A DNA stretch of 64,000 nt from Bacteroidota bacterium. GTDB lineage: Bacteria > Bacteroidota > Ignavibacteria > UBA10030 > UBA6906. This document shows positions 49,821 through 56,165 of this stretch, in pieces. The stretch lies in the NCBI GenBank assembly GCA_030835135.1, contig JAUQWO010000034.1:1-64000 (forward strand), in the 5' to 3' direction. The notes beneath the pieces are model-generated. The model made no database searches. It was not told the DNA's origin and saw only the letters and a program-made list of their open reading frames with translations. How positions within the stretch are numbered: the first letter of the stretch is position 1; every line of letters begins with the position of its first letter. A program made the translations under genes and the position numbers.

Positions 49821-49848
49821 AGTTCCTCGTGTGGTGGTCTGGTCGTTC

Positions 49849-49877
49849 AAGATACGACCTTTGGCGAAAAGACACAA
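49849..49877 (-). promoter_or_regulatory. Promoter of the DedA gene
   Basis: On the minus strand TTGTGT (49877-49872), 17 bp, TATCTT (49854-49849). It is back to back with the recG promoter, with 17 bp between the two -35 boxes. Confidence 0.55.
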
Positions 49878-49894
49878 CGGCAAACTGCCATTGC

Positions 49895-49923
49895 TTGCGC
49901 ATGGGCACGCCCGGTTGTATCTT
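49895..49923 (+). promoter_or_regulatory. Promoter of recG
   Basis: TTGCGC (49895-49900), 17 bp, TATCTT (49918-49923). Transcription near 49930 would leave fewer than 10 nt before GTG 49939, so the message is nearly leaderless. Confidence 0.6.
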
Positions 49924-49938
49924 GGCTATCACCGCTCC

Positions 49939-52167
49939 GTGATCCGACCATCGTCCATATCGCTCCTGCACCAGCCCGTCCAGTTCCTGAAAGGGGTCGG
50001 GCCGAAGAAGGCCGAGGCGCTCGCCGCCGAAGGCATCGCCACCGTCCGCGACCTGCTCTTCACGGTCCCGCGACGCTACATCGACCGCACGACCGTCTCC
50101 ACGATCCAGCAGGCCCGTGGCATCGCCCAGTCGGGCCAGGATGATACCGCCGATATCCGGCGCGAGGCGACGGTCGTGGGGGAGGTCCGCTCCTTCCGTG
50201 TGATCGGCGTGGGCCGCAAGGCACGCTTCATCCTCATCCTCGCTGACCCCACCGGGTCGCTCCAGTGCGTCTGGTTCGGCGGTGTCGGGTACTGGAAGTC
50301 ACGCTTTGTTGTCGGCGAACGCATCGCGGTGTCCGGACAGCCATCGCTCTTCGGCGCCGTGCTCCAGTTCGTGCACCCCGACGTGGACCGGCTCGCGCCC
50401 GCGGCGGAAGGCGAGAGTGCCGCGGAGGACTGGGGCCGCACGCTTGGTGCCGGCGGGCTGGTCCCGTTGTACGCCAGTACGCAGGAGCTTGCGCGCGTCG
50501 GGTTGGACAGCAGCGGGTTCCGGCGAATGATCGGGGCCGTCCTGCGCGAATACGGCAGTGCAATGCCCGATCCGCTGCCCGCGGAGCTGCGGACGCGGCA
50601 CCGCCTCGTCGGACTCGGTCCTGCGCTGCAGGCCGTGCATTTCCCGAAGACCGGGACGGATATCACGACCGCTCTGCGCCGCTTGAAGTACGAGGAGCTG
50701 TTCGACTTCCAGATCAAACTCGCCCTGCAGCGCTCTCTCGCACGCAAGGAGACCGGCGGCACGGCATTCAATGTGCAAAGCACGCGCGCACGCACGTTCG
50801 TGGACGCCCTGCCGTTCGCCCTGACCCCGTCGCAGATCAAAGTGGTCAAGGAGATCCTGGAGGACATGCAGTCGCCGCGCGCGATGCACCGTCTCCTCCA
50901 GGGCGATGTGGGCAGCGGGAAGACCGTTGTGGCGCTCATCGCCATGCTCGTCGCGGTCGACAATGGGTATCAGGCGGTGTTCGTTGCACCCACCGAGATC
51001 CTTGCCGATCAGCACTTCCGCACCATGCGGACGCTCCTTGGCGCGCTCCCGGTGACGTACCGCCTGCTGGTCGGCGCGCAACGATCGCGTCTCCGGCGGG
51101 ACGTCCTCGAAGATATCCGCGAAGGACGTGCGGACATCATCATCGCCACCCACGCGGTATTCGAAGAGGAGGTCACGTTCGCCAAACTGGGATTCGTGGT
51201 GATCGATGAGCAGCACCGCTTCGGCGTCCTCCAGCGTGCACGCATCCGCGCCAAGGGCGTGAACCCGGATGTGCTCATCATGACCGCCACGCCGATCCCG
51301 CGCACCCTGTCGCTCACGTTGTACGGCGACCTCGATGTCTCGGTGATCGATGCCCTGCCGTCGGGACGCAAACCGATCCGCACCGTGGTGAAATATGAGA
51401 ACGAGAAGGAGGGCATGTACGCGTTCGTCCGCGAGCAGGTGGCCGCGGGACGCCAGGCGTATTTCGTGTATCCGCTGATCGAGGAATCCGCGAAACTCGA
51501 ACTGAAGGCCGCCACCGTGCATCTCGAGCACCTGCAGACGGATGTCTTTCCGGACCTGCGGCTCGGTCTGCTCCACGGACGCATGGCCACGGAGGAGAAG
51601 GACGCGGTGATGCGGCGCTTTAAGGATCGGGCGATCGATATCCTGGTGGCGACGACGGTGATCGAGGTGGGGATCGACGTGCCGAACGCATCGGTGATGG
51701 TGATCGAGAACGCGGAACGCTTCGGCCTGTCGCAGCTGCACCAGCTGCGCGGACGCGTGGGACGGGGCAGCGATCAATCGTACTGCATCCTGATGACCGA
51801 GCGGTGGATCGCACAGCGTGCGCAGCGGCTCCGGCGCGGCGCCGACGAGGAGGGAGCGAAGGAACAGTATCGGGCGGCGGAGCGACGACTCGCAGCGATG
51901 GTCCAGACAACGGATGGCTTCGCGATCGCCGAGGCGGATCTTCAGTTGCGGGGGCCCGGCGACTTCTTCGGCACGCGGCAGAGTGGCTTGCCGGCGTTCC
52001 GCGTCGCCGACCCCGTCGCCGACAACGCGATCCTCATCGAAGCGCGGAAGGATGCGTTCGCGCTCATCGACACCGATCCGCACCTCCGCGATGATGATCA
52101 TCGTCACCTCGCCGAGCATCTCCGCGCCCGCTTCCGGGAGGAGCTCGCACTCATGCAGACGGGATGA
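49939..52167 (+). CDS. recG: ATP-dependent DNA helicase RecG
   Basis: RecG remodels stalled replication forks and Holliday junctions. The start is GTG 49939; earlier codons in the frame lie inside the promoter. The 742-residue product has the N-terminal wedge/OB-fold region (VQFLKGVGPKKAEAL, LLFTVPRRYIDR, QCVWFGGVGYWKSRF). The helicase core follows: Walker A LLQGDVGSGKTVVAL, motif II VVIDEQHRFGV (DEQH), MTATPIPRTLSLTLYGD, and the C-terminal half with LLHGRMATEEKDAVM, VATTVIEVGIDVPNA and LHQLRGRVGRG. DFFGTRQSGLPAFRVAD is the RecG end signature. The following ATP-grasp gene has its own promoter. Confidence 0.98.
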   Translation: MIRPSSISLLHQPVQFLKGVGPKKAEALAAEGIATVRDLLFTVPRRYIDRTTVSTIQQARGIAQSGQDDTADIRREATVVGEVRSFRVIGVGRKARFILILADPTGSLQCVWFGGVGYWKSRFVVGERIAVSGQPSLFGAVLQFVHPDVDRLAPAAEGESAAEDWGRTLGAGGLVPLYASTQELARVGLDSSGFRRMIGAVLREYGSAMPDPLPAELRTRHRLVGLGPALQAVHFPKTGTDITTALRRLKYEELFDFQIKLALQRSLARKETGGTAFNVQSTRARTFVDALPFALTPSQIKVVKEILEDMQSPRAMHRLLQGDVGSGKTVVALIAMLVAVDNGYQAVFVAPTEILADQHFRTMRTLLGALPVTYRLLVGAQRSRLRRDVLEDIREGRADIIIATHAVFEEEVTFAKLGFVVIDEQHRFGVLQRARIRAKGVNPDVLIMTATPIPRTLSLTLYGDLDVSVIDALPSGRKPIRTVVKYENEKEGMYAFVREQVAAGRQAYFVYPLIEESAKLELKAATVHLEHLQTDVFPDLRLGLLHGRMATEEKDAVMRRFKDRAIDILVATTVIEVGIDVPNASVMVIENAERFGLSQLHQLRGRVGRGSDQSYCILMTERWIAQRAQRLRRGADEEGAKEQYRAAERRLAAMVQTTDGFAIAEADLQLRGPGDFFGTRQSGLPAFRVADPVADNAILIEARKDAFALIDTDPHLRDDDHRHLAEHLRARFREELALMQTG

Positions 52168-52183
52168 AAATTGCACTTTTTTC

Positions 52184-52211
52184 TTGACACCCACGCGGAA
52201 TTGCTTATATT
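52184..52211 (+). promoter_or_regulatory. Promoter of the ATP-grasp/GNAT/aminomutase operon
   Basis: TTGACA (52184-52189, perfect), 16 bp, TATATT (52206-52211). Transcription should start near 52218. The first ATG (52224) is out of frame with the ligase coding region. Confidence 0.72.
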
Positions 52212-52249: not shown

Positions 52250-53407
52250 CTGGTACCATCTCCTCCACAGCTTCCGTCACACTCAAGAACGATCGCACTC
52301 GTCTACAACGTCAAGACGGAAGCAGCTTCCTCCCCATCGACCACTCCCGATCAGGCATCAGAGTCTCTTTCAGGTGATCGCACCGCTGTCTCCCTTGCTC
52401 ACGAAGCACGCACGCAGGACATGTACGCCGAGTGGGACACGATGGACACGATCCTGGCGGTTCGCGATGCCATCGCAACGAAGTATCCGGTCGAACTGGT
52501 CGAAGCCAACGAGGACGCGTACGGGAAGCTCCGCACCCTCCGTCCCGCGTTCGTGTTCAACATCGCGGAAGGACTCCACGGCGTGTCGCGCGAAGCGCAG
52601 GTGCCCGCGATGCTGGAGTTCCTCCAGATCCCGTACCTCGGCTCCGACCCGCTGACCCTCGCGCTGTGCCTGGACAAGGCCCGGGCGAAGGAGGTGCTGT
52701 CGTACCACGGCGTCCGGACGGCATCGTTCGTCCTGATCCGAAGCATGGCAGACCTCGAGGACGCGCGCGTCCGCTTCCCGTTGATGGTGAAGCCGCTCCA
52801 TGAAGGGTCGAGCAAGGGCATCTACAACTCCTGTGTCGTGCGGAACCCCGAAGAACTCGAGAAAGAGGTCGGCCATATCCTGTCGATGTACCACGAGCCG
52901 GTCCTGGTAGAGGAGTTCCTGCCCGGCCGCGAGTTCACGGTGGCCATGCTGGGGAACGGGGACGACCTCCGGGTACTCCCGATCGTGGAGATCTCCTTCG
53001 ATGCGCTCCCCGCGGGGATGAACCCCATCTACTCCTATGAAGCGAAGTGGATCTGGGACCGGTCCGATAAGCCGCTGGAGATCTTCTCGTGTCCGGCGAA
53101 GCTGACCGAAGCACATGCGGAAGAGATCCGTGACCTGTGCAAGCGTGCGTATCGTGTGCTCGGGTGCCGCGACTGGTCACGGCTGGACGTGCGGCTGGAT
53201 GCAGCAGGCAAGCCCCACATCCTTGAGATCAATCCGTTGCCGGGCATTCTGCCCCGGCCCGAAGACAATTCATGCTTTCCGAAGGCGGCACGAGCGGCGG
53301 GGATGTCGTATGCGCAGTTGATCACGGCCGTCCTGGAGATCGCCATGGCGCGCTGCGGCGTGCCGGCTTCGGCCGTGGTTCCCCGGACAATAACGGAACC
53401 CGTATGA
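52250..53407 (+). CDS. D-Ala-D-Ala-ligase-like ATP-grasp enzyme 1 (start uncertain)
   Basis: Homology begins with the first strand TIALVYNVKTEA at about 52289. Between the promoter and that point the frame has no ATG, GTG or TTG; CTG 52250 is used here as the nearest near-cognate codon, and ATC 52292 is another option. The ATP-grasp parts are intact: FNIAEGLHGVSREAQVPAMLE, LALCLDKARAKEVLSYHG, VKPLHEGSSKG, VEEFLPGREFTVAML and the metal-binding RLDVRLD and LEINPLPG. Two features separate it from true Ddl. The N-terminal glutamate loop that binds the first D-Ala is missing, and the YEAKY signature reads YEAKW (W codon 53048-53050). It probably joins a carboxylate to an amine as an amide, but the substrates are unknown. 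The stop overlaps the next start (ATGA). Confidence 0.75.
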   Translation: MVPSPPQLPSHSRTIALVYNVKTEAASSPSTTPDQASESLSGDRTAVSLAHEARTQDMYAEWDTMDTILAVRDAIATKYPVELVEANEDAYGKLRTLRPAFVFNIAEGLHGVSREAQVPAMLEFLQIPYLGSDPLTLALCLDKARAKEVLSYHGVRTASFVLIRSMADLEDARVRFPLMVKPLHEGSSKGIYNSCVVRNPEELEKEVGHILSMYHEPVLVEEFLPGREFTVAMLGNGDDLRVLPIVEISFDALPAGMNPIYSYEAKWIWDRSDKPLEIFSCPAKLTEAHAEEIRDLCKRAYRVLGCRDWSRLDVRLDAAGKPHILEINPLPGILPRPEDNSCFPKAARAAGMSYAQLITAVLEIAMARCGVPASAVVPRTITEPV

Positions 53408-54525
53408 GTAAAAAGTTACGAATTTCAATACTTTTTAACGAACCAGTCGTCAGCGATGTGGACATCAAAAACCTCATTGCTGAGGACGGGCAGCTCCGCC
53501 GCGATCCCGACGCTCTATTAAAGAAGGCCGCTGCCGAGAAGCACCGGAAATCCTCGAAATCCGCCCCCGCCCTCGATCTCTCCGAAGTCGGCGTTCTCGA
53601 CGAAATGGATGACATCAAGAAGGCGCTCGATTCGCTCGGCTACCGGACCACCATCGTCAACGTCAACAGCGAGATCTTCCGGCTCATCGATTACCTCCGC
53701 GCCGACCGTCCCGATGTGATCTTCAATCTGGTGGAGTGCGTCGAGAACGAATCGCTGATGGAAATGAACGTCGCGGCACTGTACGAATTGCTCAAGATCC
53801 CCTATACAGGTGCGGGCCCGCTCGCACTCGGCACCGCGCTCAACAAACCGCGCGTGAAGGAGATCCTGACCTACCACGGCATCCGCACACCGGAGTATCA
53901 GGTCTTCCGGCCCGAGGACCGTATCGTGCTGAAAGAGGGGATGACCTTCCCGCTCATTGTGAAGCCGTCGCACGAAGATGGCAGTGTCGGGATCTCCGAC
54001 CGCTCGATCGTCTCGAGTGCCGCGGAACTCCGCAGGCAGGTGCGTGCGGTCCATGCCGAGTTCCAGCAGCCCGCTCTGGTCGAACAGTACATCGAAGGGC
54101 GCGAACTGAACGTTGCGATCCTGGGCGCAGTGCATCCGCGTGTGCTGCCGGTCTCGGAGATCGATTTCTCCGGTCTGCCGTCCGACATGCACAAGATCGT
54201 GAGCTACGAGGCCAAGTGGATGCATGGCACCGCTGCGTATGTCGGTACGCGAGGCGTCTGCCCGGCCAAACTCACGGCCCGTCAGGAAGCGGAGATCAGG
54301 AAATCGGCCCTCGCGGCGTACCACCTGATCGGCTGCCGCGACTATGCGCGCGTCGATTTCCGCCTCACCACGGACGGTGTACCCTATGTGCTGGAAGTGA
54401 ATCCCAACCCCGATATCTCCGCGACGGCGGGCTTCGCCCGTTCGGCCAGGACCTCGGGGCTGTCGTACCCCGAGACCGTCGGGGCGATCGTGGACTCTGC
54501 GCTCGAGCGATGGAACCAGCAGTGA
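53404..54525 (+). CDS. D-Ala-D-Ala-ligase-like ATP-grasp enzyme 2
   Basis: A 373-residue second ATP-grasp ligase, start ATG 53404 overlapping the previous stop. It is a divergent paralogue of its neighbour. The first strand KLRISILFNEP is followed by a charged insertion of about 40 residues (from about 25 to 65). Then come IFNLVECVENESLMEMNVAALYELL, ALGTALNKPRVKEILTYHG, VKPSHEDGSVGI, VEQYIEGRELNVAIL and the metal site RVDFRL and LEVNPNPDIS. The D-Ala-binding signature again reads YEAKW (W codon 54217-54219). Two ligases in series suggest that two bonds are made, as in a tripeptide-like metabolite (inference). The first 120 bp are clearly AT-richer than the rest. Confidence 0.85.
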   Translation: MSKKLRISILFNEPVVSDVDIKNLIAEDGQLRRDPDALLKKAAAEKHRKSSKSAPALDLSEVGVLDEMDDIKKALDSLGYRTTIVNVNSEIFRLIDYLRADRPDVIFNLVECVENESLMEMNVAALYELLKIPYTGAGPLALGTALNKPRVKEILTYHGIRTPEYQVFRPEDRIVLKEGMTFPLIVKPSHEDGSVGISDRSIVSSAAELRRQVRAVHAEFQQPALVEQYIEGRELNVAILGAVHPRVLPVSEIDFSGLPSDMHKIVSYEAKWMHGTAAYVGTRGVCPAKLTARQEAEIRKSALAAYHLIGCRDYARVDFRLTTDGVPYVLEVNPNPDISATAGFARSARTSGLSYPETVGAIVDSALERWNQQ

Positions 54526-55019
54526 TCACCGGCACGATCCGTCCGCTCCGGCGGGCGGACAGGGAACCGATCCTCGGGCTCATCCGGGCCACGCAGGTGT
54601 TCTCCGATGACGAGGTCGCGATCGCTGCCGAACTGATCGATATCGTCCTCGACCGTCCGGACCAGAAGGACTACGAGATCGCGGTGTACGATGACGGGGA
54701 CGGACCGCTCGGGTACACGTGCATCGGTCCGACGCCCGGCACCGACGGGACCTACGATCTGTACTGGATCGCCGTCGACCCGGCAGTGCACGGCCGCGGC
54801 ATCGGACGGGAACTCGATCTTCATGTGGAACGTTCCGTCAGAGAGCGGCATGGACGTCTCATCGTTGCCGAGACGTCATCGACACCACGCTATGATGCAA
54901 CACGATTGTTTTACCAACGCCGGGGCTATGCAGAGCTCTCTCGTATCACGGACTACTACCGTCCGGGCGATGACCTCGTGGTCTACGGCAAATATCTTGT
55001 CTCACAACAGGGAGTGTGA
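54510..55019 (+). CDS. GNAT-family N-acetyltransferase
   Basis: The start ATG 54510 lies 16 nt inside the end of ATP-grasp gene 2. The 169-residue protein has the full GNAT fold: TIRPLRRADREPILGLI at the N-terminus, the central strands YEIAVYDDGDGPLGYTCIG and TYDLYWIAVDPAVHGRGIGREL, where HGRGIG is the acetyl-CoA pyrophosphate loop (Q/R-x-x-G-x-G/A). The C-terminal ATRLFYQRRGYAELSRITDYY is also standard. It transfers an acyl group, normally to an amine. Next to an aminomutase and two ligases the acceptor could be the beta-amino acid or the ligation product (inference). It is shorter than the known beta-lysine acetyltransferase AblB and I would not use that name. Confidence 0.85.
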   Translation: MEPAVITGTIRPLRRADREPILGLIRATQVFSDDEVAIAAELIDIVLDRPDQKDYEIAVYDDGDGPLGYTCIGPTPGTDGTYDLYWIAVDPAVHGRGIGRELDLHVERSVRERHGRLIVAETSSTPRYDATRLFYQRRGYAELSRITDYYRPGDDLVVYGKYLVSQQGV

Positions 55020-55028
55020 CAGGCACGC

Positions 55029-56165
55029 ATGGAACACTGGCAGGAAATGTTGCGGCAGAGTGTGGACAGCTCCAGGGACCTCGTCGAGAGGTTCGGTTTC
55101 AATACGGAACTTGCCAACAGCCTGAATCGTCTTTTTCATATCCGTATCAATCCGTACTACCTCAGTCTCATCCGGTATCCCGGCGATCCGATCTGGCTCC
55201 AGTGCATTCCGGACGCCAAGGAGCTCGAAGAGGACGGATTGCCGGAAGACCCGTTGGCAGAGGATTCGCACAGCCCGGTGCCCAGCATCGTCCACCGGTA
55301 CCCGGATCGGGTGCTGTTCCTGACCACGAGCCAGTGCTCGATGTACTGCCGCTTCTGCACGCGGAAGCGCAAGGTCGGCGACTCCAGCAAGATCAATATG
55401 AAGTACATCCAGGGGGGCATCGATTATATCGCCGCCCACCCGGAGATCCGGGACGTCATCATGTCGGGCGGTGATCCGCTGATGCTCACCGACTTCATGC
55501 TCGAGCGCATCATCTCCGGCCTGCGGGCGATCCCGCATGTCGAGATCATCCGTCTGGGCACCAAGATGCCGTGCGTGCTTCCGCAGCGCGTCACACCGAA
55601 GCTGGTGAAGATGCTCCGGAAGTACCATCCGATCTACATCAATACGCATTTCAACCACCCGTGGGAATGCACGCTGGAGGCCAAACGCGCCTGCGAAATG
55701 ATCGCGGACGCCGGCATCCCGCTGGGCAACCAGTCGGTCCTGATGAAGGGCGTGAACGACGACCCGGACGTGATGCTCGAACTCATGCGCAAGCTGCTGG
55801 CGATGCGGGTCCGCCCGTACTATCTGTACCAGGCCGACATCACCAAGGGTGCGAACCATTTCCGCACGCCGGTCAGCGTGGGGCTCAATATCATGGACAA
55901 ACTGCGTGGCCATACCTCCGGTCTGGCGATCCCGCAGTTCGTCATCGATGCCCCGGGCGGCGGTGGCAAGATCCCGCTCCTGCCGCAGTATGTGCTCGGA
56001 CGGAACGGCAATCAGATCATCCTCCGCAACTACAAGTACGACATCTATACCTATCCCGACGTGGAAGAGGATCCGAAGATCCCGACCCCCACGGTGGAGC
56101 GCCGGTTCACGCGGAAGAAGAAACGTACCGCGCCGGCCTATGCACCGGACGAGATGAAGGTGTAG
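55029..56165 (+). CDS. KamA-family radical SAM aminomutase, lysine-2,3-aminomutase type
   Basis: This 378-residue enzyme should move the alpha-amino group of an amino acid to the beta carbon using a 4Fe-4S cluster, SAM and PLP. The cluster cysteines are C103, C107 and C110 in CSMYCRFC. The PLP lysine is K314 in APGGGGKIPLLP. The two aspartates that bind the side-chain amine of lysine in lysine 2,3-aminomutase (D293 and D330 there, with PLP lysine 337) have counterparts D270 and D307 here with identical spacing (37 and 7). Glutamate 2,3-aminomutases have Lys and Asn at those places. L-lysine is therefore the predicted substrate. EF-P-modifying EpmB is shorter, and no epmA or efp gene is adjacent. 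It is the last gene of the operon, before a terminator-like hairpin. Confidence 0.88.
   Translation: MEHWQEMLRQSVDSSRDLVERFGFNTELANSLNRLFHIRINPYYLSLIRYPGDPIWLQCIPDAKELEEDGLPEDPLAEDSHSPVPSIVHRYPDRVLFLTTSQCSMYCRFCTRKRKVGDSSKINMKYIQGGIDYIAAHPEIRDVIMSGGDPLMLTDFMLERIISGLRAIPHVEIIRLGTKMPCVLPQRVTPKLVKMLRKYHPIYINTHFNHPWECTLEAKRACEMIADAGIPLGNQSVLMKGVNDDPDVMLELMRKLLAMRVRPYYLYQADITKGANHFRTPVSVGLNIMDKLRGHTSGLAIPQFVIDAPGGGGKIPLLPQYVLGRNGNQIILRNYKYDIYTYPDVEEDPKIPTPTVERRFTRKKKRTAPAYAPDEMKV

Follow-up and report, generated by a model that had tools for sequence, protein, structure and literature searches.

The window, meaning the whole 64,000-nucleotide stretch of Bacteroidota contig JAUQWO010000034.1 analyzed here, contains two tandem genes for ATP-grasp ligases that resemble D-alanine–D-alanine ligase (Ddl), followed by genes for a GNAT acetyltransferase and a KamA-family radical S-adenosylmethionine enzyme. 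All four genes lie on the forward strand, and the two ligases are termed A and B. Ligase A occupies 52250–53407 and ligase B 53404–54525, with the ATG of B overlapping the stop codon of A by 4 bases. The GNAT gene (54522–55019; PF13508, 42.5 bits) begins with a GTG that overlaps the stop codon of B, again by 4 bases. The KamA gene (55029–56165) is of the lysine 2,3-aminomutase type, starts nine bases after the end of the GNAT gene and matches TIGR00238 at 293.7 bits against a cut-off of 199.2. Each ligase carries the motif YEAKW, which reads TAT GAA GCG AAG TGG in A and TAC GAG GCC AAG TGG in B. An earlier note on this DNA placed the two Trp codons at 53048–53050 and 54217–54219, and these coordinates are exact to the base. 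A third paralogue is termed C.

Conservation of the A-B-GNAT-KamA operon

The A, B, GNAT and KamA genes form a four-gene operon that is conserved widely and that appears not to have been described before. A contig scan with A yielded 462 relatives, the best 80 of which are used as named loci. Judged by their titles, these are mostly from Ignavibacteria, Bacteroidetes and Kryptonia, together with Pelobacter, other Proteobacteria, Wallbacteria and one Planctomycetota record. The order A-B-GNAT-KamA is present in 73 of the 80 loci (70 clean and three, L047, L052 and L108, with split frames), and a Planctomycetota record and a Pelobacter record are among the 73. The other seven comprise four loci cut by a contig end (L044, L071, L074 and L094), one with A alone (L090) and two with polyamine genes (L110 and L114). 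The operon also occurs in a metagenome-assembled genome named Melioribacter roseus (L107), a species that has a cultured strain.

Whole-genome samples give the frequency of A at an E-value of 1e-90. A was found in 14 of 198 genomes from the phylum of genome G060, 18 of 247 from that of G063 and 10 of 246 from that of G064, and in 53 of 296 from the window's own phylum; the G060 and G063 samples overlap. From these samples, 43 further loci were chosen and fetched. The order A-B-GNAT-KamA recurs in 23 of them and is rearranged in two (GNAT-A-B-KamA in L149 and KamA-A-B-GNAT in L202), ten carry polyamine genes upstream of A-B, and two (L152 and L206) break off a short way upstream and contain no polyamine gene in the remaining sequence. 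Three loci of family f39 (L188, L189 and L195) have A alone behind a small membrane-like open reading frame (ORF), which in L188 is without a Pfam match. The best B match reaches 319 bits or more in 54 of 60 relatives of the window genome; two of the six below this value (G002, G011, G018, G033, G034 and G044), namely G018 and G034, hold high-identity pieces of B. In the Wallbacteria genome G062, a B-like gene adjoins KamA on a contig other than the one with A.

A survey of amidoligases published in 2009 by Iyer and colleagues may mention such a neighborhood. No description of the operon was found in the open-access papers searched, a coverage that leaves subscription papers largely outside, and PMC2922099 covers different ATP-grasp gene neighborhoods.

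Substrate-pocket residues of ligases A and B

The pockets of A and B were compared with that of E. coli DdlB (ddlB locus L207 from NC_000913), whose numbering is used throughout. The residue table comprises DdlB and 30 PF07478 proteins from nine genomes, giving 10 Ddl, 9 A, 9 B and 3 C sequences, with weaker matches excluded. All 10 Ddl sequences, DdlB and one per genome, possess Glu15, His63, Ser150, Tyr216, Arg255, Gly276 and Ser281. A and B share with DdlB the ATP-grasp fold, Arg255 and the ATP/Mg residues examined; Lys97, Lys144, Glu180, Glu187, Lys215, Asp257, Glu270 and Asn272 are intact in 9/9 A, 9/9 B and 3/3 C.

A and B both differ from DdlB at three places in the pocket. First, the Trp of YEAKW aligns to Tyr216. 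Every distinct aligned sequence has Trp216, both for A (127 of 127) and for B (119 of 119), as do all three C. Over 153 loci, the motif is readable for A in 150 and for B in 142, with Trp in every case; the remainder are cut or lack the gene, and rows scoring higher with another family were dropped. Chance or artefact is thus ruled out as the origin of Trp216, since none of the A and B sequences read deviates from it. A distant relative, L238, has Phe at this position (AKF, by eye). Second, the N-terminal Glu15 loop (xEREVS/xEHEVS) that the earlier note had described as lacking in both ligases is indeed absent from A and B in the alignment to DdlB, and from C as well, whereas all 10 Ddl sequences have the Glu. 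The A sequences show a Glu at position 15 twice, in a gappy linker that is built differently. Third, His63 of the HGxxGEDG block, present in 10/10 Ddl, is replaced by Glu in 9/9 A, 9/9 B and 3/3 C.

The two ligases are not alike at the acceptor site. The nine A proteins retain Ser150, Arg255, Gly276 and Ser281, and the acceptor loop of A (NPLPGILPRPEDNSCFPKAAR, 53231–53293, forward strand) has a 4-residue insertion relative to Ddl while keeping the Gly276 and Ser281 equivalents, according to the alignment and the residue tables. B retains only Arg255 among Arg255, Gly276 and Ser281. The same sources place Asp at the Gly276 equivalent and Ala at the Ser281 equivalent in the acceptor loop of B (NPNPDISATAGFAR, 54400–54441, forward strand). 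B further departs from DdlB by the changes of Gly149 to Asp and Ser150 to Ala or Gly. Across the nine B and three C proteins, position 149 is Asp, position 150 is Ala or Gly and position 210 is Val, Ile or Cys; position 276 is Asp, except for one Asn in C, and position 281 is Ala in B and Val or Thr in C.

D-Ala–D-lactate (D-Lac) ligases such as LmDdl2 and VanA retain D-Ala as the first substrate, and VanA presumably has Phe, not Trp, at the 216 equivalent. LmDdl2 resembles B in that position 216 is changed and that Ala occupies position 150, as in most B, and differs in having Phe rather than Trp at 216, according to PMC7691350. In the same paper, Ser150 and Tyr216 accompany Ddls that make only D-Ala–D-Ala, and replacement of Ser150 by Ala and of Tyr216 by Phe in DdlB confers weak D-Ala–D-Lac activity. 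This backs the role that the earlier note had given for Tyr216 in the D-Ala site and the shift toward D-lactate caused by Phe. By itself, however, residue 216 is a weak diagnostic because this Tyr is only 40–50% conserved among Ddls; for B. pseudomallei Ddl, in which Tyr221 is the equivalent residue, PMC6899670 gives 40–50% identity and notes that other aromatic residues can replace the Tyr. As far as sequence can tell, it is the joint loss of Glu15, His63 and Tyr216 that carries the argument against a Ddl function.

A and B belong to PF07478 (136.9 and 124.8 bits; cut-off, 24), and the best Ddl model of NCBIfam gives 197.6 bits for A and 171.1 bits for B against a cut-off of 243. Neither ligase reaches any NCBIfam cut-off among the best 25 of 42 matching models for A and the best 25 of 41 for B. 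A canonical ddl lies elsewhere in the window genome, on contig C51 at 74290–74901, with 237.9 bits in a search that gives 138.4 bits for A and 126.4 bits for B. It carries Glu15, His63, Ser150, Tyr216, Gly276 and Ser281, and one canonical ddl per genome is present in 9 of 9 genomes searched. The earlier note had called for a search for a standard ddl and had held that neither ligase is a peptidoglycan Ddl. The gene exists with the full canonical signature, which contradicts the absence of any other ddl that the note had named as one half of a refutation. The view is well supported: the pocket residues, the NCBIfam cut-offs and the separate canonical ddl lead us to reject A or B as the peptidoglycan Ddl.

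The AlphaFold models of A (mean predicted local distance difference test score, pLDDT, 77.9) and B (84.4) have D-Ala–D-Ala ligases as their best structure matches, and among the 40 matches listed for each protein in a sequence profile search of the PDB, most are Ddl or Van ligases and a few are distant ATP-grasp enzymes. Since proteins of the A/B type score best against D-Ala–D-Ala ligase models, they risk being mistaken for cell-wall enzymes or antibiotic targets. In the sets examined, the signature of Trp216, Glu63 and a missing Glu15 loop cleanly separates the A/B type from Ddl.

A possible beta-lysine pathway and its alternatives

The KamA gene is the most conserved member of the operon, with identities to the window's own protein, in the loci compared, of about 81–93% vs 54–77% for A and 51–75% for B. 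KamA aligns with the solved lysine 2,3-aminomutase 2a5h at an E-value of 2.3e-120, across all three cluster cysteines. Like 2a5h and AblA, it keeps the first cluster Cys, Arg134, Asp293, Asp330 and Lys337, and these five residues are conserved in 92 of 92 KamA rows that are 45–93% identical to the window's protein (rows of at least 300 aligned residues; shorter pieces were dropped). We take Asp293 and Asp330 to bind the side-chain ammonium of lysine and Lys337 to be the pyridoxal phosphate Lys. The operon KamA differs from these aminomutases in falling under the TIGR03820 cut-off and in standing beside two ligases and a GNAT that is not AblB. The nearest solved relative of the GNAT by sequence, and the sole solved chain matched at an E-value of 0.001, is 2r7h (E-value 3.6e-29), named 'Putative D-alanine N-acetyltransferase of GNAT family'; this name may reflect merely a ligase neighbor. 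NCBIfam matches of the GNAT up to an E-value of 0.01 are limited to rimI, PRK03624, MshD and PRK09491, none above its cut-off, and include no AblB.

What could a pair of non-Ddl ligases make together with an aminomutase and an acetyltransferase? We propose, with a probability of roughly 50%, that A and B are active ATP-grasp amide ligases that do not form D-Ala–D-Ala and that they share one pathway with KamA and GNAT, leading to a product derived from beta-lysine. KamA would convert L-lysine to beta-lysine. A and B would each spend ATP to activate a carboxylate and then couple it to an amine, and beta-lysine would thereby end up in a di- or tripeptide or in a diamine amide. The acceptor of A is probably an amino acid because A keeps Arg255, Ser281 and Gly276, the residues that in Ddl bind the second D-Ala through its carboxylate. 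B has Asp at position 276 and Ala at position 281, so it probably accepts a cationic amine that presents no carboxylate to this part of the site. The GNAT would cap an amine with acetyl. In favor of the proposal are the conserved gene order, the 4-base overlaps, the kept aminomutase residues and high conservation of KamA, the intact ATP/Mg residues, the adjacency of a B-like gene and KamA in G062 and the Ddl matches of the structure models. The conserved operon, the residue pattern, the intact catalytic residues and the separate canonical ddl are observed, whereas we infer the ligase activity, the use of beta-lysine as a substrate, the order of the steps and the acetylated product. The best reading of the operon is a putative, uncharacterized route to a beta-lysine peptide or amine conjugate that bears an N-acetyl group. 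Its novelty is the combination of known folds in one operon. If this reading is true, a conserved beta-lysine product has been overlooked in several phyla, and the four-gene cassette makes the proposal directly testable.

A more specific and speculative form of the proposal, which we hold with considerable doubt, is that the matched pair of Ddl-derived ligases yields an N-acetylated beta-lysine oligo-amide, an undescribed but widespread compound that would serve as a polyamine-like cation in the cell. Such a role would explain why KamA alternates beside A-B with genes resembling those for arginine decarboxylase, agmatinase and deoxyhypusine synthase. In 12 delta-type loci (L110, L114, L143–L148, L151 and L153–L155), a pyruvoyl arginine decarboxylase gene lies upstream of A-B, and agmatinase-like and/or deoxyhypusine-synthase-like genes accompany it in varying sets. 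In L110, Pfam bears out all three families (PF01916, 310 bits; PF00491, 207; PF01862, 196), and one gene of L143 was also checked against Pfam. In L143, an ORF weakly resembling RimK-like ATP-grasp proteins lies between the decarboxylase and A. In support of the KamA link, the 14 genomes without KamA beside A-B, which are the 12 of the polyamine type and two with cut loci, all have a KamA above the family cut-off elsewhere, vs 34 of 60 sampled genomes without A (Fisher p 0.0014, a value that exaggerates the association because the genomes are related).

Several observations weigh against the beta-lysine proposal. KamA is common anyway, as the 34 of 60 genomes without A indicate, and the distant KamA copies in the 14 genomes are only 47–53% identical to that of the operon. 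By eye, 12 of these 14 copies follow a small ORF resembling a MerR-type regulator (L257–L262, L264–L266, L268, L270 and L271), and the distant copies may serve another purpose. The KamA of the window scores 465.7 bits, below the lysine 2,3-aminomutase cut-off of 525.4 in TIGR03820. Five of the 43 further loci (L188, L189, L190, L191 and L195) have A with none of the other three genes close by, and one more (L201) has A and GNAT without B. In the model of A, the loop YSYEAKWIWD has a pLDDT below 50, so the geometry of the pocket is unreadable. Finally, the ligases may use agmatine or putrescine as their amine partner, with the KamA link secondary, because polyamine genes adjoin A-B in the 12 loci where KamA lies elsewhere.

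This last point leads to an alternative that we regard as unlikely, in which A and B make a polyamine or agmatine amide and KamA is either an independent neighbor or the supplier of a polyamine-like building block. The arginine decarboxylase upstream of A-B in the 12 delta-type loci speaks for it, as do the occurrence of the decarboxylase in 57 of 60 genomes related to that of the window and the acceptor site of B, where an Asp has appeared and the Ser that binds the carboxylate is gone. However, the decarboxylase is unlinked to A-B in the six regions viewed in these relatives, where its neighbors are, by eye, tyrosyl-tRNA-synthetase-like and/or smpB-like ORFs, and the usual partner of A-B is KamA rather than polyamine genes.

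It is distinctly less probable that the operon product is a compatible solute related to N-epsilon-acetyl-beta-lysine, to which the ligases would add a further residue. The pairing of an aminomutase with an acetyltransferase follows the known ablA/ablB logic, described for Pelobacter carbinolicus in PMC3543383, and the operon KamA keeps all five lysine-type residues tested. However, no AblB family is among the four NCBIfam matches of the GNAT, and two ligases are superfluous for N-epsilon-acetyl-beta-lysine. The operon is also present in metagenome-assembled genomes titled fen or soil, and two genomes (G063 and G242) have an extra, separate KamA followed by an acetyltransferase-sized ORF, which by eye we take for an ablA-ablB pair.

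KamA relatives make beta-lysine for elongation factor P (EF-P). It is on this background that a role of A and B on the cell wall or on protein would lean, either as a peptidoglycan side-chain ligase or in attaching a beta-lysine tag to a protein such as EF-P, a role that we consider very improbable. The Ddl type of the fold and ATP site is in keeping with it, and the nearest solved chain of the GNAT is named as a putative D-alanine acetyltransferase. However, the Glu15 loop and His63 are gone from both ligases, and KamA reaches 235.8 bits vs an EpmB cut-off of 369.3. EpmA (TIGR00462) is above its cut-off in 0 of 60 relatives vs 2 of 14 control genomes, and the strongest TIGR00462 matches in the relatives fall in frames at least about 500 residues long, a length that fits lysyl-tRNA synthetase. 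EF-P beta-lysylation via EpmA is accordingly unsupported. Least credible of all is an alternative Ddl or D-Ala–D-X ligase that would act under some condition, to which the Ddl models as the best NCBIfam matches of A and B, the D-Ala2 carboxylate residues of A and the trees that permit A to group with Ddl lend some weight, but which is opposed by the missing Glu15 loop and His63 in 9/9 A, by Trp216 in all aligned A and B and by the canonical ddl in 9/9 genomes.

Ancestry of the ligases and flanking features

The beta-lysine proposal places two related ligases in one pathway, and their split is ancient. A and B are about 39% identical, and the A/B pair is common to several phyla. In the trees, Ddl and A each form a single clade (support 100/100 and 100/99, respectively), and C is nested among the B rows. 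Topology tests weakly reject A, B and C together (approximately unbiased test, p-AU 0.033) and likewise B alone (0.041), and allow A to group with Ddl (p-AU 0.53). The first tree contained three long odd rows (L234, L238 and L239), of which L239 was removed from the second, and L238, which the group table of the second tree sets among the B rows, may drive the rejection of A+B+C as one clade. A single Trp/Tyr change suffices on the tree when the odd rows are left uncounted; on these unrooted trees, it may have run in either direction and may have preceded or followed the A/B split.

The earlier note had envisaged a pocket rebuilt in both copies and a duplication that followed the Tyr-to-Trp change. 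Worded in this way, the idea lacks support: the two pockets differ, with A keeping the second-site residues and B not, the pair occurs in several phyla, the identity is about 39% and A is not joined to B apart from Ddl in the trees. Nor do the trees show that the Trp was passed on in a recent tandem duplication. The note did not bring up the GNAT and KamA genes of the operon.

The C gene lies on contig C31 of the window genome (locus L008, 8705–9877, forward strand), has the motif YDAKW and encodes a protein 42% identical to B. Back to back with C is an ORF of 311 amino acids (L008, 7791–8726, reverse strand) whose product, judged by eye, resembles a C39-type papain-fold peptidase and has no Pfam match at an E-value of 0.001. 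In L234 (2185–3648, forward strand), an ATP-grasp domain of the superfamily continues in frame into a domain that resembles, by eye, an M20-type peptidase.

Upstream of the operon, a scan identified a sigma-70-like promoter, TTGACA-N16-TATATT, at 52184–52211 on the forward strand with 11 of 12 matches, as one of 2 promoter-like sites vs 1.0 expected in shuffles. A similar TTGACA...TATATT block precedes A, by eye, in most of 18 printed sequences, and the promoter and leader of the operon look conserved. The likely start codon of A is a CTG at 52250. In 13 of 14 same-family loci examined (18 fetched), an in-frame CTG follows a GGA-type ribosome site at the equivalent position, and 9 of the 14 have no ATG or GTG directly ahead of the domain. 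In four loci from other families, the CTG start was present in none. No RNA family reached its gathering threshold within the window. Directly upstream of the operon lies recG (49831–52167, forward strand; gene named by eye), and a recG-like ORF occupies the equivalent place in L107, L178–L183 and L192–L194, a long-range synteny.

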